This document shows, in pieces, positions 2,202-10,072 of a stretch of DNA of 10,075 nt. Below the pieces are notes generated by a model, which saw only the letters and a program-made list of their open reading frames with translations, had not been told where the DNA came from and did no database searches. The translations under genes were made by a program, and so were the position numbers. Numbering within the stretch: position 1 is the first letter of the stretch; each line of letters starts with the position of its first letter. Source of the DNA: Minisyncoccota bacterium (lineage in GTDB: Bacteria > Patescibacteriota > Minisyncoccia > Phycocordibacterales > GCA-2747955); the NCBI GenBank assembly GCA_023143935.1, contig JAGLGQ010000009.1, positions 1-10,075 on the forward strand, written 5' to 3'.

Positions 2202-3671
2202 ATGAAATTAAAAAAAATAAAAGACTTGTTTAATACGAATTGGGAAACTAGAAAAAAGACGATATTTATAGTGATGATTTTTTTGTTTGTTTATTTTTTT
2301 ATTTTAGAAATATTATTTGGTAAAATGGCTTTCTTTGAAGCTGTAAATGAGATATCTTCTGTAGATTTTTCGGAGCTTATGATATTTATTTTAATATCGT
2401 ACACAGTCTTTTATATTTTATCTTTTTTACCAAAATGGTTATTTTTTCTGTTAACTACTATTGCAATAATAGTTATATCATCTTTTTTATATTTACCAGG
2501 AACTGCTATTCAATATTACATTAGAGGTTATATGGATACAAAACATCAAGTTGATTACCAAATTTCTATGCTAGATAATGCTGAATTAGTGTTAGTTGGA
2601 ACGAGTCATGATAAATATACTTCTTCTGGTTATAGTTCTAATAATACAGATTTTAACATTTTAAAATATTTAGATATTCAAGATAATAATCAAAAAATGG
2701 TGAATGTGGCTATGTTCAATGAAGATTATAGCTCTTTCTATGATTCGGTAGTCAAAGGTGAAATTATTTATTATTTAAAACATAAAAAAAAGATTTTAGA
2801 ATTATATGAATATAATTTAAATAATAAAGTCAGTAATTTGTTGGATGTGTGGGAGCATGAACATGATGGAATATTTTATTATGGTGATGGAATTAAAACT
2901 AAATTATTTTTAAACAAAGACGAGTTAATTTGGTATTTTAAGGGTTCTATTAGAAAATACGATTTAGCTGATGATAAAAAAGTATCAGAAAGTCTTTTGA
3001 TTCCTAATAAATTTAATATAGATAAAAATGGATTTTATGAAACAAATTACGATGAAGATACCTATTTTATTCTAGGAGATATTGCAAGTATTTTTTTTGA
3101 GGATAATATTTTATCAATTACTTCAAAAGATTTAGGAATAAAAAAAGATTCACAAAGGTCAACTTCATCTTTATGTTTTAAAAGAAGAAATAGTGGATAT
3201 GGTGATTACCCTGGAGTGGTTAAATGTGATTTGGAGAGTAATAAGTGTAAAATGGAATGTGTTAAGGATGAGCATGGTGAAATATATGCAGAAGCTTCGG
3301 GCCAGCGTTATCCAATTGTAAAATTAAATGATAATGAGATTATTCATATAAGTAATAAGAAAATACATTCAGTTAATTGTGGGGGGTATTTTCAAATTGG
3401 CAAGTGTAGGTTATATTCACAATCTTTTATCAATATATTTAATGGTGTAAAAAGTAGAGAAGTATATAGTTATGTTAGCAGTATTGAACCTAACGGACAC
3501 ATAGGACACATGATTATTTCTAAGGATAATAATTATATTGTTTATTCTTTGAGTGGTTATAAGAATATAGATACATATTTACTCGACATTCGTGGTGGCA
3601 ATAAACCAAAATTGTTGGCCAAAAATGCTTACCCTATATTTTTTAATGTTAAACAAGTTGTTTATGATTAA
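2202..3671 (+). CDS. Membrane protein with a cysteine-rich, probably propeller-like extracytoplasmic region
   Basis: This protein of 489 aa has no family I can name. Three hydrophobic helices lie near the N-terminus at about residues 20-38, 59-76 and 79-98, followed by roughly 390 residues likely outside the membrane. Cysteines cluster at about residues 320-420 (VKCDLESNKCKMECV, VNCGGYFQIGKC), suggesting disulfides. The C-terminal part (SSIEPNGHIGHMIISKDNNY, then YSLSGYKNIDTYLLDIRG) resembles a TolB/WD40-like blade, where a Ser-Lys-Asp turn precedes a strand; this is a weak similarity. A frame extends upstream to an ATG at 2145, but that start precedes the promoter. The stop overlaps the next gene by 8 nt (ATGATTAA), implying coupled translation with the RCC1-repeat protein. 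Confidence 0.75.
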   Translation: MKLKKIKDLFNTNWETRKKTIFIVMIFLFVYFFILEILFGKMAFFEAVNEISSVDFSELMIFILISYTVFYILSFLPKWLFFLLTTIAIIVISSFLYLPGTAIQYYIRGYMDTKHQVDYQISMLDNAELVLVGTSHDKYTSSGYSSNNTDFNILKYLDIQDNNQKMVNVAMFNEDYSSFYDSVVKGEIIYYLKHKKKILELYEYNLNNKVSNLLDVWEHEHDGIFYYGDGIKTKLFLNKDELIWYFKGSIRKYDLADDKKVSESLLIPNKFNIDKNGFYETNYDEDTYFILGDIASIFFEDNILSITSKDLGIKKDSQRSTSSLCFKRRNSGYGDYPGVVKCDLESNKCKMECVKDEHGEIYAEASGQRYPIVKLNDNEIIHISNKKIHSVNCGGYFQIGKCRLYSQSFINIFNGVKSREVYSYVSSIEPNGHIGHMIISKDNNYIVYSLSGYKNIDTYLLDIRGGNKPKLLAKNAYPIFFNVKQVVYD

Positions 3672-4998
3672 GTATTTTAAAAAACATAAAATCGGTTTAA
3701 TTATATGGATTATCTTTATAATTTTTATAGTGATTTCAAATATCAATAGTATTATATATGTTTTTAATGCACCTCATGAAAAAAAAATACCAGAGAAGTA
3801 TTTGATAATTCAACAAGAAACATTAAAAAAGCAAAAAGATTATTTAAAAAAGTTGGAGATATGTGGAAATTCAGATGATATAGTTGATAATATAAAATTT
3901 AAAAAGGTTGTTACTGGTAAAGATTTTACTTGCGCACTTTCTTTGAACGGAGACGTAGCGTGTTGGGGTGCTAACGATAAAGGTCAACTAGGTTTAGGTT
4001 GCAACTTGGATAAAGATATTCCGTATAGAATCAAAAATCTTGAAGGTGCTGTGGATATTTCTGCGGGTATTGATCACGTCTGTGCTGTAATTAAAGATGG
4101 AACTGTAAAATGTTGGGGTAGTGGTGAATACAGAAAGCTGGGACAGAAGGAACTAAAATCTTTTAGTAAGGAAAAGTATAAAAATAGTAATACTCCAATA
4201 CTTGTAGAGGGATTTAGTGACGCTATTTTAGTTAGTGTTGGTGATAAAAGTTCTTGTGCTGTAATTAAAGATGGAACTGTAAAATGTTGGGGGGAAGGTG
4301 GTTTGGATTTGAGACATTTTAATAAAGTTGATTATGATATAGATGGAGAAATGGTGGTTATTCCAATAATCAACTTAGTTAATGTTGTAAAAATATCTGT
4401 AGGTGATAATGTCGCCTGTGCCATAATTAAAGATGGAACCGTAAAATGTTGGGGAGATGATTATGGTTATAAGAAGATAAATAAAAAAGGTCCTTTTTAT
4501 GATTATGAACCTATTATTTTTGAATATTTGAAAAAAGTGCAAGATATTTCAGTGGGTCATGATCACGTCTGTGCTGTAATTCAAGATGGAACTGTAAAAT
4601 GTTGGGGTAGTGGGTCAATGAGTAGGTTCGGAGATGGAAGATTAAATACCCGTGAAGATTATCCTTTTAAAATTAAAGAGTTAAATAATATTGAAAGTGT
4701 AACTGTCGGGAGAAGTCACACTTGTGTCGAAGGAATATCTGGAGATACCAAGTGTTGGTCTAGTGGTGGTTATGGTAAATTAGGAAATGGGAATACTAAT
4801 TATGAAAAGTATCCTAAAATCATTTCAGGTTTAAAAGTAAAACAAATTGATGCTGGAGTTAATCATACTTGTGCTATAATTAAAGATGGAACTGTAAAAT
4901 GTTGGGGAGCAAATATAAGGGGGCAAATTGGCAACCCAAGCGCTTTTTATGCTCAATTAGACCCCATAAATCCTCTTTTTTATCCAAATAGTAAATAA
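3664..4998 (+). CDS. Membrane-anchored RCC1-type seven-repeat beta-propeller protein
   Basis: This 444-aa protein begins with a basic stretch and one hydrophobic helix (about residues 9-33), then a linker, then seven repeats from about residue 88 to the end. Each repeat has a core of the form C-A-x-I-K-D-G-T-V-K-C-W-G, with cores near bases 3933, 4081, 4255, 4417, 4570, 4722 and 4870. Seven is the blade number of RCC1 propellers. Each core carries two cysteines, so one disulfide per blade in an extracytoplasmic domain is plausible. The sixth copy is divergent (TCVEGISGDTKCW). The function is probably binding of a protein or surface ligand; no enzyme motif is seen. I chose the ATG at 3664, which overlaps the upstream stop, over a GTG at 3592 that would add 24 residues unlike a signal sequence. 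It is probably co-transcribed and may be a partner of the upstream membrane protein. Confidence 0.85.
   Translation: MIKYFKKHKIGLIIWIIFIIFIVISNINSIIYVFNAPHEKKIPEKYLIIQQETLKKQKDYLKKLEICGNSDDIVDNIKFKKVVTGKDFTCALSLNGDVACWGANDKGQLGLGCNLDKDIPYRIKNLEGAVDISAGIDHVCAVIKDGTVKCWGSGEYRKLGQKELKSFSKEKYKNSNTPILVEGFSDAILVSVGDKSSCAVIKDGTVKCWGEGGLDLRHFNKVDYDIDGEMVVIPIINLVNVVKISVGDNVACAIIKDGTVKCWGDDYGYKKINKKGPFYDYEPIIFEYLKKVQDISVGHDHVCAVIQDGTVKCWGSGSMSRFGDGRLNTREDYPFKIKELNNIESVTVGRSHTCVEGISGDTKCWSSGGYGKLGNGNTNYEKYPKIISGLKVKQIDAGVNHTCAIIKDGTVKCWGANIRGQIGNPSAFYAQLDPINPLFYPNSK
4081..4907 (+). repeat. Five near-identical 38-bp DNA repeats inside the RCC1 gene
   Basis: A 38-bp block beginning TGTGCTGTAATT and ending AAATGTTGGGG recurs at 4081, 4255, 4417, 4570 and 4870. 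The copies at 4081 and 4255 are identical and the others differ at one to three bases, mostly silently. The surrounding blade sequence is much more diverged. The copies at 4072-4124 and 4561-4613 match over about 52 of 53 bases, including their left flank. Confidence 0.85.
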
Positions 4999-5000
4999 TA

Positions 5001-5027
5001 AAAACAAACTCTAAAAGTTTGTTTTTT
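5001..5027. terminator. Intrinsic terminator of the propeller operon
   Basis: The arms AAAACAAACT (5001-5010) and AGTTTGTTTT (5016-5025) form a perfect 10-bp stem with a 5-nt loop and T-tail, starting 2 nt after the stop codon. A very similar hairpin sits at 8973-9001. Confidence 0.8.
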
Positions 5028-5028
5028 G

Positions 5029-5075
5029 TTTATAAACGAAATTTATGATTCTAAACTTTGCTTACTTGTTGGGGT
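5029..5075 (+). repeat. 47-bp direct repeat, copy A
   Basis: Identical to 9003-9049 over 47 bases, running from TTTATAAACG to GTTGGGGT. Similarity continues leftward through both terminators with a few changes, giving about 75 bp of homology. To the right the copies diverge at once: this one runs into CGGCTGGTTAGC, the other into the tRNA-His acceptor stem. Confidence 0.85.
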
Positions 5076-5174: not shown

Positions 5175-5858
5175 ATGGAGTTAATTTTAATTTGGTTATT
5201 GGTAACTTTTTCGATTGCAACATTTTCAGTTTTAATTGGAAAAAAGTATGGGGTGATTTATCCAACAGTAATATTTGCGGGATTATCAGTATTGGCAAAT
5301 ATATTAGCAGTAAAATTAGTAACAATTGGAGAGTATGTGGTGCCAGCAGGAACATTTGTTTTTATCACAACTTATCTAATTACAGATCTTGTGTCTGAAA
5401 TTTGGGGGAAGAAGGAATCAAGAAATGCGGTATGGGCTGGGTTTTATTTAAATATTGTAGCGGTAGTATCTATATACATCGCAATACAATGGCCAACAGC
5501 AGTATTTGCAATTGAGATGGGAGATATGTTTGCGCAGGTTCTTGGTGGCACATGGAGAATTATTACGGCCTCAATGATTGCATATTTAATATCAATGCAT
5601 TTAGATGTAACATTTTTCCATATGATTAAAAAATGGACAAAAGGAAAACATTTATGGTTGAGAAATAATTTAGCAACAATTCCTGCAAATGCCATTGGAG
5701 CAACAGTTTTTGTTCTTATTGCTTTTTGGGGAGTTGTGCCAAATGTTTGGAGTATGATTCTTACGTTAGCAATCGCCCAGTCTGTAATGGTATTAATTGA
5801 TACACCTTTTGTATATTTAATTAGATATTTAGCGAATAAAATTGAAACAAAAAAATAA
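5175..5858 (+). CDS. yhhQ: Queuosine-precursor transporter, YhhQ/VUT (DUF165) family
   Basis: This 227-aa integral membrane protein has about six hydrophobic segments, the size usual for the family. The stretch VVPAGTFVFITTYLITDLVS at residues 56-75, followed by EIWGKKESRNAVW, is a hallmark of the YhhQ family. Members import the queuosine precursors preQ0/preQ1 for salvage into position 34 of tRNAs with GUN anticodons. A late NAIGATVFVLIAFWG segment and a short basic tail (IETKK) also fit. The start follows a TATAAT box by about 50 nt, and the gene ends convergently 10 bp from the glycosyltransferase gene. No queuosine-pathway gene is adjacent, so salvage with a tgt gene elsewhere is inferred. 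A target tRNA, tRNA-His(GTG), lies about 3.2 kb downstream. Confidence 0.9.
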   Translation: MELILIWLLVTFSIATFSVLIGKKYGVIYPTVIFAGLSVLANILAVKLVTIGEYVVPAGTFVFITTYLITDLVSEIWGKKESRNAVWAGFYLNIVAVVSIYIAIQWPTAVFAIEMGDMFAQVLGGTWRIITASMIAYLISMHLDVTFFHMIKKWTKGKHLWLRNNLATIPANAIGATVFVLIAFWGVVPNVWSMILTLAIAQSVMVLIDTPFVYLIRYLANKIETKK

Positions 5859-5882
5859 ATAATATTTTTTATTTTTTTTGTT
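5846..5882. terminator. Shared bidirectional A/T hairpin between convergent genes
   Basis: AACAAAAAAATAAAT pairs imperfectly with ATTTTTTATTTTTTTTGTT around the 10-bp gap between the two stop codons. The arms overlap the last codons of both convergent genes, so each gene would end in a U-rich hairpin. The stem has no G-C core beyond its outer pair, so the call is moderate. Confidence 0.5.
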
Positions 5883-6960
5883 CATAATTTTTTATTAAGT
5901 TTAACGCTACCGTAGATGCTTTATATTTAATTGCTTCTTTTTTTAATTTATTTAAATTTGAATTTCTTTTATTTTGTAATTCTTGTTTTACTTCATGAGT
6001 GAATTTGGATATATTACCGGGTGATACTAGATTTATATAATTACATGTTAAATTTGGTAAATTACCAGAAGAGGTAGTAATTAAGGGTGTTTTATAAGCC
6101 ATAGCTTCTAACGCCGCTAGCCCAAAAGACTCTGTCTTGGTTGGTAATAATATTATACGTGCATTTGATACTATTTCGGGTATTTTTTTCCATGGAATTG
6201 AATCCAATATACTTATGCGATTAGTATATTGTGATTTTTTTATTTTATCAATAACCGATTGATAATATTTTCGATTATCTATAAAAGGAAAGTTTCCTCC
6301 ACATAAAACAAGTTTCACATCTTTAAAGTTATTAGCTATTTCTTCAAATATTTTTAATGCATCAATTGTATTTTTTTCTGGACTAATGCGTGCATTTACA
6401 AATATATAATTTTTTTTAGATTTTGTTTTATTAATATTTTGGATAATTAATGAATTAGGTAGGATTTTTATTTCTTTAGATATAACATTTTTTATTTCTT
6501 TAGATAATGATGTGCTGACAGAAAAAAGATCGTATTTTTTATTTTCTAAAGATTTTAATATTTGTTTATTGTGAAAAATATGTAACCATAAAATGGTTGG
6601 AATAGAATATTCAAGTCCAAGTATGGGTACGATTCCCCATAGATGGTCAATGCAAATAATTAAGTCAATTTTATCTGATTTAATTATTTTTTTTATTTCT
6701 GAATCTATAGTAGTCTTTTTTTTATGTAAAAAATTAATTATGGTATTATCAGTGCCATCAAATGGTATACGAAGATTTTTGCTTGCATATATAAAAAGAT
6801 TATTTTTTTTATATATACCAACTTTCATTTTGAATGGTCCAGTGTATATTGATACATTATGTCCATTTTCTCTTAATCCATGAACTAGATTATTTGTAGC
6901 ATGTTCTATTCCCCCAAACGTATTTTCACCATATGTAAGAAAAGTTATTAAAATGTTCAT
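5869..6960 (-). CDS. GT4-family glycosyltransferase
   Basis: This 363-aa GT-B fold enzyme probably transfers a sugar from an activated donor to a lipid-linked or surface glycan at the inner face of the membrane. The N-terminus MNILITFLTYG and the GG loop (residues 16-17, FGGIEH) fit the first Rossmann domain. The second domain starts near residue 187 (NYIFVNARISPEKN), with the Arg and Lys typical of donor phosphate binding. The C-terminal E-x7-E motif is at E277-E285 (ESFGLAALE), then PLITTSSGNLP. Length is normal for GT4. Donor and acceptor cannot be told. It follows the deoxyribosyltransferase-like gene by 3 nt, so the two share a minus-strand transcript. No other polysaccharide genes are nearby, making it an isolated glycosyltransferase in this window. 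Confidence 0.88.
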   Translation of the reverse strand: MNILITFLTYGENTFGGIEHATNNLVHGLRENGHNVSIYTGPFKMKVGIYKKNNLFIYASKNLRIPFDGTDNTIINFLHKKKTTIDSEIKKIIKSDKIDLIICIDHLWGIVPILGLEYSIPTILWLHIFHNKQILKSLENKKYDLFSVSTSLSKEIKNVISKEIKILPNSLIIQNINKTKSKKNYIFVNARISPEKNTIDALKIFEEIANNFKDVKLVLCGGNFPFIDNRKYYQSVIDKIKKSQYTNRISILDSIPWKKIPEIVSNARIILLPTKTESFGLAALEAMAYKTPLITTSSGNLPNLTCNYINLVSPGNISKFTHEVKQELQNKRNSNLNKLKKEAIKYKASTVALNLIKNYEQKK

Positions 6961-6963
6961 GTA

Positions 6964-7389
6964 TTATTTTGTAAAATAATTTATTATATCTTCTCTAGTT
7001 TTAAATATTTTTGAGGTACTGTGAGTAATCATAATATTATCTTTACCGTAGGCATCCATAGCCCTACTGTCTGTTTTAAAAATTAAACATTTTTTCTTAT
7101 GAGCATAAGCATATCCTAATTCAAAAATTGTTCCTTCATCTGGTACGCGACCATCTAATAAACATAAAATAGTGTCACACCAATCAAGCGCTTCTATGTC
7201 TTTTTTAAATATTGTAGATCTTATCTCTTCTTCTTTTTTTGGATTTGTAATTATTTTTTTGATAGCAATTCCAGCATCATCTTGAGGTAAGTATACTTCG
7301 TGTTTTAACTTTTTTAATATATCGGATATTTCAATATTTCTTTGTTGTTCCATTTCATTAAACAATGGTCCAGCGATGTAAATTTTCAT
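6964..7389 (-). CDS. Nucleoside 2-deoxyribosyltransferase-like protein
   Basis: This 141-aa protein has the normal length for a stand-alone nucleoside 2-deoxyribosyltransferase (PF05014-type). The N-terminal YIAGPLF (residues 4-10) fits the nucleoside-binding Rossmann-like core, and DIEALDWCDTILCLLDGRVP then DEGTIFELGYAYA (84-96) holds the presumed catalytic Glu90. A KDNIM stretch at 116-120 may supply the conserved Asn. Classical members swap or hydrolyse the base of deoxynucleosides in salvage. Related proteins also act as retron effectors (Ec86/Eco1) and as nucleotide-depleting defence enzymes. Here it is first in a minus-strand pair with the glycosyltransferase and its start lies 40 bp from the divergent reverse transcriptase gene. 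Housekeeping salvage is the default reading; a link to the reverse transcriptase is speculative. Confidence 0.87.
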   Translation of the reverse strand: MKIYIAGPLFNEMEQQRNIEISDILKKLKHEVYLPQDDAGIAIKKIITNPKKEEEIRSTIFKKDIEALDWCDTILCLLDGRVPDEGTIFELGYAYAHKKKCLIFKTDSRAMDAYGKDNIMITHSTSKIFKTREDIINYFTK

Positions 7390-7395
7390 AATACA

Positions 7396-7407
7396 TATGA
7401 TATCATA
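7396..7407. promoter_or_regulatory. Palindromic divergent -10 region
   Basis: TATGATATCATA is a perfect 12-bp palindrome and reads TGATATCAT, an extended -10 with one change from TGnTATAAT, on both strands. On the minus strand it ends 8 nt before the deoxyribosyltransferase ATG (leaderless). On the plus strand it ends 24 nt before the reverse transcriptase ATG. One site could serve both genes, making their transcription mutually exclusive, or be a repressor site. Confidence 0.45.
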
Positions 7408-7429
7408 AACTTAAATTTATTTTTAATAT

Positions 7430-8179
7430 ATGAATATTGATTTGAAAATTATTGATTTAATTTTAAAAAGAAAAAAAAGACAAAAAAGTAGTGTTAGTAC
7501 AGATGGTTTATCGTGGAAAATAATGTATAAAAATAAAGAATACCATATTTTGAAAATTAAAGAGTATATTGAGAATTATAAATTTAATAATATTGAGGAA
7601 ATTCAAAGTTATAAGGTTAGTAATTTTTGTATATATGTTCCAAACATGTATGAAAGAGTTGTGCAACTTTATTTTTGTGAAATTTTAGAAAAATTAAAAA
7701 AGAAAGAAATTCCAATGGTGATTAGAAGAGAGTCATTGATAAAAGAGTGGTTTTTTAATAAGAGTAAAATCTATAATAAATATTATTGTACGCATTTAGA
7801 CATAAAACATTATTTTAATTCAATAACCATTAAACATGTGGAAAGCTTGATATTAAGTTTCTTTAATACCGACTCCGTTACAAGAAATATGATACTTCAG
7901 ATGATTCGTTTTGGTAAAAATGGAGAGGGTCTTTTGGTTGGTTTTCCATTAAATTCTTATATAGCAGATCATATATTGTTATTTATAGATGTTAAATTAA
8001 TTAATGACGATGTAATAAGGTTTCATGATGATTTTTTTGTGTATCACAAAAAACCAAATATGCCATTAAGTATTAATGATAAAATATTTAATGAAATTGT
8101 AAAATTGAATTTTGAAATGAATAGTAGTAAAATTAAAACACTACAATATCCTTTTGTTATATATGACTTTTTCAAATAA
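7430..8179 (+). CDS. Small stand-alone reverse transcriptase
   Basis: This 249-aa protein has the order of palm motifs of prokaryotic reverse transcriptases. A fingers-type stretch MYERVVQLYFCEIL (73-86) resembles the D-R-V-V-Q region. Motif A is LDIKHYFNSI with D124; motif B is GLLVGFPLNSYIAD (167-180); motif C is IRFHDDFFVY with D200-D201; motif D is LNFEMNSSKIKTL (226-238). All three catalytic aspartates are present. Motif C has FHDD instead of the usual YADD. The protein stops about 10 residues after motif D, so the thumb is minimal or absent; retron and DGR enzymes are usually 300 aa or longer. No maturase, integrase or primase domain is fused. It cannot be assigned to retron, group II, DGR or Abi/UG classes by eye. 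The 3' end overlaps the 5'-3' exonuclease gene, implying joint expression. Confidence 0.85.
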   Translation: MNIDLKIIDLILKRKKRQKSSVSTDGLSWKIMYKNKEYHILKIKEYIENYKFNNIEEIQSYKVSNFCIYVPNMYERVVQLYFCEILEKLKKKEIPMVIRRESLIKEWFFNKSKIYNKYYCTHLDIKHYFNSITIKHVESLILSFFNTDSVTRNMILQMIRFGKNGEGLLVGFPLNSYIADHILLFIDVKLINDDVIRFHDDFFVYHKKPNMPLSINDKIFNEIVKLNFEMNSSKIKTLQYPFVIYDFFK

Positions 8180-8969
8180 AAAACTTTTAATTGTGGATGG
8201 ACATAATCTTTTGTTTAAAAGTTTTTTTGGTATTCCAGCATTTAAGTCAAGACATGGAAAATATGTTCATGGAATTGTGGGGTTTTTGGGCATGTTGCGA
8301 AAAATAATTAATTTATCTAAATGTGAATATTGTCATGTTGTATTTGATGGGGAGCAAGTTTCTGAAAGAAAGAAAAAAGATAATACTTATAAAGCAAATC
8401 GCATAGATTATAATAAAGTTCATGATAGTGAAAATCCGTTTACTCAGTTGGATTCTATTCAACGTGTACTTACATATTTAAAAATTTCCTGGGTAGAAAC
8501 TAAATTTGGACAGGAGGCAGATGATTTGATAGCAACAATTGTTGCACAAGAAAAGAAAATGGATAAAGTTATTTCATCTTTTGATAGTGATTTTTTTACA
8601 CTTCTTGAATCACATACTAAAATTTTAAGGTATCGTGGAAAGAAGTCTTATTTTGTAGATCGTGATTGGGTGTTTCAAAAATATGGGGTAGAACCAGAAG
8701 ATTTTTCAAGGTTTAAATCAATAGTCGGTGATTCAGCAGATAACATAAAAGGTATTTCTGGTTTTGGTCCTGTTATTGCACGAAAAGTTTTGAGTGGTGA
8801 AAGGCGCTTGACTGCAGAAGAAGAAAAACAAATGAAATTTTGTCTTGAATTAATATTGTTTAATAAAAAAATTAAATATAAACTACCTCCTAAGAAAAAA
8901 ATAAGCATTCCCAATAATTTATTGGAAATTAAAATGAACGAAATACTTGAATCATTAGATATTTTATAA
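8163..8969 (+). CDS. FEN/PolA-type 5'-3' exonuclease (flap nuclease)
   Basis: This 268-aa protein matches the 5'-3' exonuclease domain of DNA polymerase I and phage T5/T4 FEN enzymes, without a polymerase. The metal-binding acids are in place: D12 (LIVDGHNLLF), D62 (VVFDGE), E118/D120/D121 (QEADDLIA), D141/D143 (SFDSDFF), D190/D193 (VGDSADNIKG). YKANR (76-80) is typical, and GISGFGPVIARKVL (197-210) is the helix-hairpin-helix DNA-binding element. It should cut 5' flaps and degrade DNA or RNA from 5' ends in duplexes. E. coli ExoIX-like homologues lack part of the acidic set; this one does not. I chose ATG 8163 (17-bp overlap with the reverse transcriptase gene) over TTG 8154. It probably works with the reverse transcriptase, by removing RNA from hybrids or trimming flaps; this is inferred. 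A terminator follows the stop by 3 nt. Confidence 0.9.
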   Translation: MTFSNKKLLIVDGHNLLFKSFFGIPAFKSRHGKYVHGIVGFLGMLRKIINLSKCEYCHVVFDGEQVSERKKKDNTYKANRIDYNKVHDSENPFTQLDSIQRVLTYLKISWVETKFGQEADDLIATIVAQEKKMDKVISSFDSDFFTLLESHTKILRYRGKKSYFVDRDWVFQKYGVEPEDFSRFKSIVGDSADNIKGISGFGPVIARKVLSGERRLTAEEEKQMKFCLELILFNKKIKYKLPPKKKISIPNNLLEIKMNEILESLDIL

Positions 8970-8972
8970 AAT

Positions 8973-9001
8973 AAAAAACAAACCTTAAAAGTTTGTTTTT
9001 T
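8973..9001. terminator. Bidirectional terminator shared by the RT-nuclease operon and tRNA-His
   Basis: AAAAAACAAAC (8973-8983) and GTTTGTTTTTT (8991-9001) form a perfect 11-bp stem with a 7-nt loop. It follows the nuclease stop codon on the plus strand and lies about 43 nt beyond the tRNA-His 3' end on the minus strand. It resembles the terminator at 5001-5027 closely. Confidence 0.8.
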
Positions 9002-9002
9002 A

Positions 9003-9049
9003 TTTATAAACGAAATTTATGATTCTAAACTTTGCTTACTTGTTGGGGT
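9003..9049 (+). repeat. 47-bp direct repeat copy B, with left half of the stem-loop element
   Basis: Identical to 5029-5075. It contains the left stem arm TTCTAAACTTTGCTTAC (9023-9039) and the start of the loop (TTGTTGGGGT), but the right arm is missing: from 9050 the sequence is tRNA-His. The repeat includes the last six bases of the tRNA (ACCCCA on the minus strand). Confidence 0.85.
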
Positions 9050-9119
9050 GGCTACCCGGAATTGAACCGGGGTTTTCGGTACCACAAACCGAAGTAATAA
9101 CCATTATACCATAGCCACC
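9044..9119 (-). tRNA. tRNA-His (anticodon GTG), CCA and G-1 encoded
   Basis: On the minus strand the acceptor arms GTGGCTA and TAGCCAC pair fully. The anticodon stem TCGGT/ACCGA encloses loop TTGTGGT, giving anticodon GTG. The T arm is CCCGG-TTCAATT-CCGGG. The D arm is short (GTA, loop, TAC). The extra G-1 that marks histidine tRNAs is encoded at 9119 opposite discriminator C73 at 9047, and CCA is encoded at 9044-9046. G34 with U33 and U35 makes it a normal target for queuosine. Confidence 0.97.
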
Positions 9120-9906: not shown

Positions 9907-9978
9907 ATATTTTTCACAAAGCAAGGCTTAACACATAGAAAATTTTCTATGTGTTAAGCCTTGCTTTGTGAAAAATAT
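9907..9978. repeat. Perfect 72-bp palindrome
   Basis: Bases 9907-9942 and 9943-9978 are exact reverse complements (36-bp arms, no spacer). The arms are less A/T-rich than their surroundings and contain CACAAAGCAAGGCTTAACAC. It starts 33 bp after lemA, so it may end lemA transcription, but it lacks a clean T-tail and is far longer than needed. The DNA could extrude a cruciform. Confidence 0.95.
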
Positions 9979-10007
9979 TTTTAAAAAATATTCGTAATTT
10001 TTATCAC

Positions 10008-10034
10008 AGCACATTCTATAGAATGTGCTTTTTT
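10008..10034 (+). terminator. Intrinsic terminator
   Basis: GCACATTCTATAGAATGTGC (10009-10028) is a perfect 20-bp palindrome, extended by an A-T pair and followed by a T-tract to 10034. It is the second terminator-like element behind lemA, or belongs to a minus-strand gene beyond the window. Confidence 0.75.
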
Positions 10035-10046
10035 ATAAAAATAAAA

Positions 10047-10072
10047 TAGTTATTTAAATAGCTATTTAAATA
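10047..10072. repeat. Tandem 12-bp repeat forming a 22-bp palindrome
   Basis: Two copies of TAG(T/C)TATTTAAA (10047-10058 and 10059-10070) overlap a perfect 22-bp palindrome at 10051-10072 centred on AGCT. It sits at the window edge, where the next promoter or operator could be; what follows cannot be seen. Confidence 0.55.

Follow-up and report, generated by a model that had tools for sequence, protein, structure and literature searches.

A compact reverse transcriptase and a standalone FEN-type nuclease share a mobile-looking, preQ0/7-deazaguanine-linked gene island in several bacterial phyla

In a stretch of 10,075 nucleotides from a Minisyncoccota bacterium (GenBank assembly GCA_023143935.1, contig JAGLGQ010000009.1; hereafter the window), the gene for a compact reverse transcriptase (RT) overlaps that of a standalone FEN/PolA-type 5'-3' exonuclease (FEN). 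The reading to which we lean, tentatively and with somewhat less than even confidence, is that RT and FEN form the nucleic-acid half of a mobile-looking island linked to preQ0 and 7-deazaguanine, and that they make or process nucleic acid containing a glycosylated deazaguanine. RT and FEN are seen together within such a deazaguanine-linked, glycosyltransferase-bearing island in the window's phylum, in Bacillota and in Actinomycetota; Bacteroidota show it in part. Each protein comes from a known family; it is the system as a whole that we consider new. A sequence-only reading of the window had proposed a candidate new RT system made of these two genes. This is supported in part: none of the tested defining features of retrons, diversity-generating retroelements (DGRs) or group II introns was found, but the two-gene composition does not hold, the pair being part of a larger cluster.

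The RT gene (7430..8179, plus strand) encodes 249 amino acids and matches RVT_1 (PF00078, E 1.3e-6). The catalytic aspartate of motif A (D124; 7799..7801, plus strand) occupies an invariant column of an alignment of 14 RT sequences (A5), and motif C reads F-H-D-D (F198-D201; 8021..8032, plus strand) in both the alignment and a pattern check. The FEN gene (8163..8969, plus strand) encodes 268 amino acids and matches PF02739 (5_3_exonuc_N) with 115.6 bits; ATG 8163 is its most likely start, with the start of protein P0002 as a guide. The two open reading frames (ORFs) overlap by 17 nt, and the acidic metal-ligand residues of FEN are invariant in 18 sequences. Both the overlap of an RT gene with intact catalytic motifs and a nuclease gene and the retention of the nuclease metal ligands, as first read from the sequence, are thus borne out. 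As the host genome carries a second, separate PF02739 protein that is not fused to a polymerase (contig C53, 364 aa), the window FEN is additional to a 5' nuclease encoded elsewhere.

The pair makes up one half of an island of about 4 kb (5.0-9.05 kb), and the genes for YhhQ, a GT4 glycosyltransferase and a nucleoside 2-deoxyribosyltransferase-like protein (NDT) lie in the rest. Related clusters were sought in a genome scan with an alignment of standalone FENs as the query; the best 80 of 534 FEN loci were kept, from which no prevalence can be drawn, and RTs were then sought nearby. A home-made RT hidden Markov model missed the RT of locus L086, which, like the RT remnant of L238, was found through neighbours or by tblastn; given this weak detection, a locus without RT is one in which none was recognised. 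RT lies directly 5' of FEN in the window and in loci L183, L086, L101 and L238; the adjacency, whose recurrence the earlier reading had named as a check, thus recurs across genomes, in keeping with a dedicated pair. The two share a cluster without being adjacent in 10 actinomycete loci of the scan and in L159, on a megaplasmid of Embleya.

Locus L086, from a Clostridia metagenome-assembled genome (MAG), holds YhhQ, NDT, a GT4 broken into two frames, PIG-L, RT, FEN and a gene resembling FemAB/GNAT, and this set is flanked by two tRNA-Lys genes with 56 identical bases in common. At 7953-8102 of the same locus there is, besides the two tRNA-Lys genes, a 51-bp tRNA-Lys fragment (8051-8101), which suggests repeated recombination at the site. 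In the Bacteroidales MAG locus L101, the contig begins with the C-terminal part of an RT, followed directly by FEN and a FemAB-like gene, so that only a partial set is present. The 10 actinomycete loci have the order RT, FGE, DUF6884, GT2, radical SAM, phosphoribosyltransferase (PRTase), GT4, FEN and PIG-L. The Embleya locus carries QueC, a DUF6884-like gene, PIG-L, FGE, GT4, RT, FEN and NDT, with 1.4 kb from RT to FEN and QueC about 6 kb ahead of RT; its NDT matches that of the window with 94.7 bits.

Among 379 genomes of the window's phylum, a FEN search gave 19 with E <=1e-26, the window's own included, and two more RT-FEN pairs, L183 and L238. One genome of the phylum shares an identical FEN with a named Ca. 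Peribacteria genome, from which we infer that the phylum is Patescibacteria. The genome of L183 is of a different family, and the locus comprises PIG-L, GT4, a DUF6884-like gene, a further GT4, YhhQ, NDT (reverse), RT, FEN and a FemAB-like gene; it keeps the divergent arrangement of NDT and RT-FEN seen in the window, and its RT and FEN likewise overlap by 17 nt, with different bases. In L238 (818-3110), what is left of an RT is its C-terminal part, which shares 57.5% identity with the RT of L183 across 40 residues and overlaps FEN by 4 nt; a transposase of insertion-sequence type, named by eye, occupies the place of the RT front, and radical SAM and GT4-like genes, also named by eye, flank the remnant and FEN. 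For the 18 other genomes with a close FEN, about 1.5 kb on each side was viewed, L183 and L238 excepted; 14 further FEN loci in the order of L183 have no cluster genes within this distance. A FEN relative at L172 (genome G842) has an open frame of just 175 aa, with 47% identity across query residues 6-151, and is truncated or frameshifted. FEN searches of IMG/VR returned 1 and 4 distant loci, at which tblastn found no cluster genes.

The linkage can also be counted. Among the best 80 of 534 FEN loci, RT was present in 11, a window-like GT4 in 11 and both in 10 (Fisher 7e-11, an overstated p value because related FEN loci are treated as independent). With the RT of L124, identified through L237, the counts become 12, 11 and 11, the Fisher value predating this addition; loci L122, L130 and L139 hold only part of an RT. 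In a FEN tree of 108 rows, in which one sequence appears twice, as L167 and as L183, RT-linked FENs fall at four places: the window, L086 with L101, L183, and the actinomycetes. The RT-link label changes six times on this tree, at least five of the changes being forced by starred branches and comprising losses as well as gains, against a shuffled mean of 16; the labels of L168 (the L238 pair) and of L129 and L153 (loci without RT) would now be set differently. This distribution suggests that the nuclease probably came together with such RTs repeatedly, or was swapped, an outcome that mere hitch-hiking would not predict.

The connection to 7-deazaguanine is apparent in every lineage with enough sequence to judge, except L238, because YhhQ or QueC/QueD/QueE, that is, preQ0 transporter or synthesis genes, are found there. 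In the window, a YhhQ-type queuosine (preQ0/preQ1) precursor transporter of 227 aa (5175..5858, plus strand) scores 131.2 bits with TIGR00697 (cut-off 50.95) and also matches PF02592; this model is above its cut-off in all three clusters tested. QueC lies just upstream of RT on the same strand, at about 0.25 or 1.2-1.4 kb, in 9 of the 10 actinomycete genomes. In eight of these, the stretch with QueC and the RT-FEN locus are identical where they overlap; the ninth, that of L139, contains QueC twice, with an RT after each copy, and in the tenth (L158) the relation of QueC to RT cannot be told. The second QueC-RT-FGE set in the genome of L139 (L194) has an RT 79% identical to that of L121. In the longer gaps between QueC and RT, QueE models are the best match in four actinomycete loci (88-100 bits, all below cut-off), and QueD was matched in the two loci tested with 90.9 and 87.1 bits (cut-off 89.25). 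DUF6884 is above cut-off in L121 (48.9 bits) and weak in L183 (24.2, cut-off 30).

Two further genes complete the window's island. The GT4 glycosyltransferase (5869..6960, minus strand; 363 aa; PF00534, 92 bits) is related to the GT4 of the actinomycete clusters (blastp E 1.8e-25) and of L086 (tblastn 170 bits). The NDT (6964..7389, minus strand; 141 aa) matches PF05014 with 83.4 bits and NDTs in the PDB, and the signature DGR(V/T)PDEG..ELG is common to the window, L183, L086 and L159. We take ELG in the window protein to be the catalytic glutamate motif of nucleoside 2-deoxyribosyltransferases. By sequence the protein belongs to that family and is predicted to be a transferase or hydrolase. 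An NDT-like neighbour is named for one QueC-like cluster in a 2026 survey of the QueC family (PMC13329287), and the authors of a 2019 paper on deazaguanine modification of phage DNA left room for 2'-deoxyribosyltransferases that had escaped detection (PMC6884629).

While the linkage of RT and FEN with preQ0/7-deazaguanine genes is well supported, the biochemistry of the cluster, with every enzymatic step, substrate, template and biological purpose, is something that we infer. Four sets of parts may be distinguished, for supply (YhhQ or QueC/D/E), for joining base to sugar (NDT or PRTase), for decoration (GT4, GT2, PIG-L, FemAB-like) and for handling nucleic acid (RT, FEN). A 7-deazaguanine precursor would be imported by YhhQ, or made by QueC, in some clusters together with QueD and QueE, and NDT, or the PRTase in actinomycetes, would then link the base to (deoxy)ribose; DUF6884, where present, may alter the nitrile, as its relative DpdC does. 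GT4 could attach a sugar, to be trimmed or decorated by the PIG-L deacetylase and the FemAB/GNAT-like acyltransferase, where present, as with BshA/BshB or MshA/MshB. RT would finally polymerise DNA on an RNA or DNA template and the 5' nuclease would remove RNA or flaps, so that modified nucleotides might end in a DNA strand or an oligonucleotide, possibly for DNA marking or defence. A decorated base ending in a DNA strand would best suit an NDT that acts on 2'-deoxyribosides, an RT that makes DNA and a nuclease able to remove RNA or flaps. No template gene is visible: in the window, L183 and L086, RT has other genes close on either side. A more specific version, which we regard as doubtful, is a hitherto undescribed system passed on horizontally, whose RT and FEN would incorporate into DNA a glycosylated 7-deazaguanine nucleotide made available by a deoxyribosyltransferase of its own, as a polymerase-based alternative to DNA modification by the transglycosylase DpdA or as a factory of modified oligonucleotides.

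The same supply and decoration genes can be read differently. With their preQ0 genes and glycosyltransferases, PRTase, radical SAM, FGE and PIG-L, the loci look like biosynthetic clusters, and it is conceivable, if on the unlikely side, that the product is a free glycosylated 7-deazapurine nucleoside, acting as a natural product or signal, with RT and FEN serving self-protection, copying or regulation. There is a precedent in huimycin, for which a glycosyltransferase is proposed to place N-acetylglucosamine on a preQ0-derived base (PMC7439116). The main text of that paper, however, does not contain the words "reverse transcriptase" or "nuclease" (PMC7439116), and the window's small island, in a genome of 0.63 Mb, still retains RT and FEN.

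Turning to the RT itself, the Pfam RVT_1 score of the window protein is low; one RVT_1 match was found in the host genome. The RT fold is clear, by AlphaFold2 and Foldseek, once cluster relatives are aligned with it: the model reached a predicted local distance difference test (pLDDT) score of 82.3 and a predicted template modelling (pTM) score of 0.80, against a pLDDT of 42 for a single-sequence model, and its top Foldseek matches are the G2L4 RT and the group II intron RT GsI-IIC. Compared with known RTs, the A5 profile places GsI-IIC first (144 bits, 3.5e-41), ahead of Cas6-RT-Cas1 (98 bits, 4e-27), G2L4 (46 bits), DGR (40 bits, 2e-9) and retrons (23-27 bits; Ec86 4e-4). The VIA ranking of the model, in which DGR (19.0) and G2L4 (18.8) are tied, is less clear than the profile order. 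Judged by sequence and model, the RT core resembles those of group II introns and Cas1-linked RTs, tree and VIA being less clear on this point. The RTs of the window, L183 and the L086 type consist of the RT core only (244-256 aa); in actinomycetes the open frames reach about 325 aa, with an uncertain start.

Occurrences of these RTs are few. Among 5.8 billion proteins, the window RT matched one near-identical fragment (P0001) and nothing else; searches of IMG/VR and tblastn against phages and plasmids yielded little, and 98 relatives gave, besides its own, one match (E 8.7e-4) within a methyltransferase-like ORF. The L183 RT had no match in IMG/VR and matched 29 phage records, all below 60% identity and several annotated as retron-type RTs. 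The L086 RT had no match in plasmids or phages and, in 297 genomes of its order, matched itself and three others weakly. The L086 RT (5218-5988) belongs to a family of eight proteins among the 5.8 billion (P0122-P0129), with motif C LIDS/LMDS in the rows read and a very long branch.

Several observations weigh against the reading that we favour. At the second catalytic position of motif C, the window and L183 have D, the L086 family S (LIDS/LMDS) and the actinomycetes N (FADN or FVDN), so that activity cannot be assumed for the whole RT family; RT may be weakly active or structural in the latter two groups. The cluster RTs form no supported clade, although a single clade is not rejected either (p-AU of the approximately unbiased test 0.171). 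Among the non-actinomycete FEN loci of the best 80 of 534, an RT was recognised in 2 of 66 and, with the weak detection noted above, none in 64. L119, L125 and L132, in the FEN clade of the actinomycetes, have no cluster genes nearby, and the actinomycete loci L129 and L153, with pieces of GT4/FEN/PIG-L and no RT recognised within 6 kb, may be decayed clusters. YhhQ, NDT and QueC were not found on the 8.1-kb contig of L238, the window island is without PIG-L, DUF6884 and FemAB, and the cluster DUF6884 proteins match DpdC weakly, near noise (E 0.003-0.011).

The RT tree, which the first reading had suggested as a check, settles the placement only in part: window and L183 join as long branches and L086-type RTs lie next to DGRs, a single clade being neither shown nor rejected. 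Of 34 loci of the window's order that were tried, L024, L025, L027 and L054 had no ORF passing the filter; 20 further RT loci were left out, and the group labelled GII includes L020-L023, placed there solely for want of the DGR motif. In the same order, RVT_1 occurs in 133 of 297 genomes and a DGR-type motif in 26 of the 30 RT ORFs extracted; DGRs seem common there.

The substitutions in motif C also bear on the idea of a domesticated group II-like RT with reduced catalysis, whose role would be to bind nucleic acid and act as a scaffold for FEN or the modification enzymes. Loss of the second aspartate to S or N in two of three lineages and the core-only form of the RT in the window, L183 and the L086 type would suit a scaffold. 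We nevertheless consider it rather improbable, as window and L183 keep DD and the motif A aspartate, the first motif C aspartate and the motif D lysine are invariant across the 14 sequences of A5.

The island character is evident from its borders. Direct repeats of 76 bp bound it at 5000..5075 and 8974..9049 (both plus strand), with 73 of 76 bases identical (96% identity); at 126 bits this is the best self-repeat in the window, compared with at most 38.3 bits in 30 dinucleotide shuffles. The left copy starts directly past the stop of an RCC1-repeat gene, and the right copy starts directly past the FEN stop and ends 6 nt within the 3' end of a tRNA-His (GTG) gene (9044..9118, minus strand; ARAGORN, Rfam RF00005), on whose 3' side the island lies. 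A hairpin with a T run 3' of FEN (8969..9005, plus strand; -12.5 kcal/mol, z -5.96) is terminator-like and lies mostly within the right repeat; a consensus terminator scan did not list it. The window proteins that were scanned include no recognisable integrase. Matches to the tRNA-His/LemA stretch were found in eight of nine related genomes. In one of these, a congener (G004, locus L223), tRNA-His and LemA (60% identical) are adjacent as in the window and the island is absent; in the other related-genome loci, LemA was not found beside the matched stretch. Because L223 has the isoleucyl-tRNA synthetase gene on the other side of tRNA-His, where the window has the island, we read the site as an insertion hot spot.

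Such a tRNA-adjacent hot spot might gather RT, FEN and the other genes as chance neighbours with no joint function, and the synthetase found instead to the left of tRNA-His in the congener speaks for this. This explanation is already disfavoured, and we consider it very improbable, in view of co-occurrence in separate FEN lineages and the RT/FEN overlap of equal length and different bases in two families. A functional partnership with tRNA-His was likewise considered and dropped, as L086 adjoins tRNA-Lys and no tRNA was found in L101, L183, L159, L121 or L120.

The window is one contig (C119) of a host genome of 630 kb in 129 contigs that is 88% complete. Elsewhere on it, the RCC1-repeat protein gene (3592-4998) contains near-identical DNA repeats of 38-71 bp. 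For two neighbouring ORFs at 355-2053 (306 and 264 aa), Pfam, NCBIfam, PHROGs and PADLOC gave no convincing family assignment, and a 48-bp inverted repeat lies near them (180-227). A perfect 72-bp inverted repeat with 36-bp arms (9907-9978), possibly a transposon-like or strong terminator structure, follows LemA, and a weaker palindrome comes after it (9980-10058).

The tRNA-flanked borders, together with the few and scattered occurrences, could also point to an anti-phage role, in which RT makes cDNA or an oligonucleotide on infection, in the manner of a retron or of defence-associated RTs (DRTs), and the deazaguanine and glycosylation genes would label the cell's own DNA or a protein, much as in Dpd, Qat or type IV CBASS; one possible variant would deazaguanylate a protein, as CBASS does. 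QueC homologues serve in Qat and type IV CBASS according to two QueC-family papers (PMC13279940, PMC13329287), in which the term "reverse transcriptase" is absent. In PADLOC, the window RT matches RT_UG26 (37.3 bits), the generic RT model PDLC01136 (36.7 bits) and other DRT models, all weakly, and the L183 RT prefers PDLC01136 (128 bits). Set against this, there is no space for a noncoding RNA beside RT in the window, L183 or L086, no effector or sensor was recognised among the proteins scanned against PADLOC, and the cluster QueC proteins (L187, L159) are canonical QueC above cut-off and match QatC only weakly. Taken together, we regard an anti-phage system of this kind as unlikely.

Prokaryotic RTs have roles in mobile introns, DGRs, retrons, CRISPR memory, antiviral synthesis and repair. 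We know of none tied to both 7-deazaguanine supply and glycosylation, and in the open-access literature on RTs with these partner genes we found no paper describing such a cluster. The cluster is a concrete gene set for asking whether bacteria place hypermodified nucleotides by reverse transcription and, as it occurs in named actinomycete strains, it is open to experiment. It would join RT systems with deazaguanine biology, in which homologues of its genes are already at work in defence or in the marking of DNA (QueC in Qat and CBASS; DpdC).

The pair can be compared with known RT systems. Retrons and the antiviral DRT/UG RTs are similar in joining an RT to a partner protein in an island setting. 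They differ in that the window has no room for a noncoding RNA, the divergent gap between NDT and RT (7390..7429) being, by ORF coordinates and sequence, 40 bp and too short for a retron-type RNA gene, and FEN lying over the RT end, which leaves no msr-msd room, and in that the window RT has no C-terminal extension. Retron RTs have the motifs NAxxH and VTG, both absent in the window, L183 and L086 RTs. Only tRNA reached gathering thresholds in an Rfam scan of the window, with no retron RNA and no intron family; a retron was dropped for want of RNA room. DGR RTs have the motif [LIVM]G[NQ]xxSQ, which is absent in the same three RTs, the window having VGFPLNS instead. Self-blastn of the window, L183, L086, L121, L120, L127 and L159 gave no template/variable repeats; what it returned were border or tRNA repeats, those of RCC1, palindromes and, roughly 9 kb away from RT in L121, a single repeat of 197 bp, and a DGR was likewise dropped. 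Group II intron RTs, RT-Cas1 and G2L4 are the nearest RTs by profile and Foldseek; in contrast to them, the RTs of the window, L183 and the L086 type are core-only, Pfam shows RVT_1 alone in the window RT with no maturase domain, and no cas1 is among the genes identified. A group II intron was dropped, there being neither maturase domain nor intron RNA.

Among deazaguanine systems, Dpd islands resemble the clusters in their island character, in having preQ0 genes or YhhQ nearby in some cases, and in DUF6884, the domain named for dpdC (PMC11888242). The clusters differ in having RT, FEN, NDT and GT4 and no DpdA, the tRNA-guanine transglycosylase (TGT)-like enzyme, in the genes scanned; Pfam found no TGT in 10 ORFs of the window or 9 genes of L183, a scan confined to these genes. 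The 7-deazapurine clusters of huimycin/toyocamycin type likewise combine the preQ0 pathway with a glycosyltransferase, likened here by role and not by homology, whereas RT, FEN, NDT or PRTase, DUF6884 and PIG-L are added in our clusters. Finally, the pair of GT4 and PIG-L recalls BshA/BshB and MshA/MshB of bacillithiol and mycothiol synthesis: BshA is the best match of an L183 GT4 (68.9 bits) and BshB1 that of the L086 PIG-L (46.8 bits), both below cut-off, and BshA is the second-best match of the window GT4 (67.5 bits). Here, however, the pair is linked not to thiol synthesis but to RT, FEN and deazaguanine genes.

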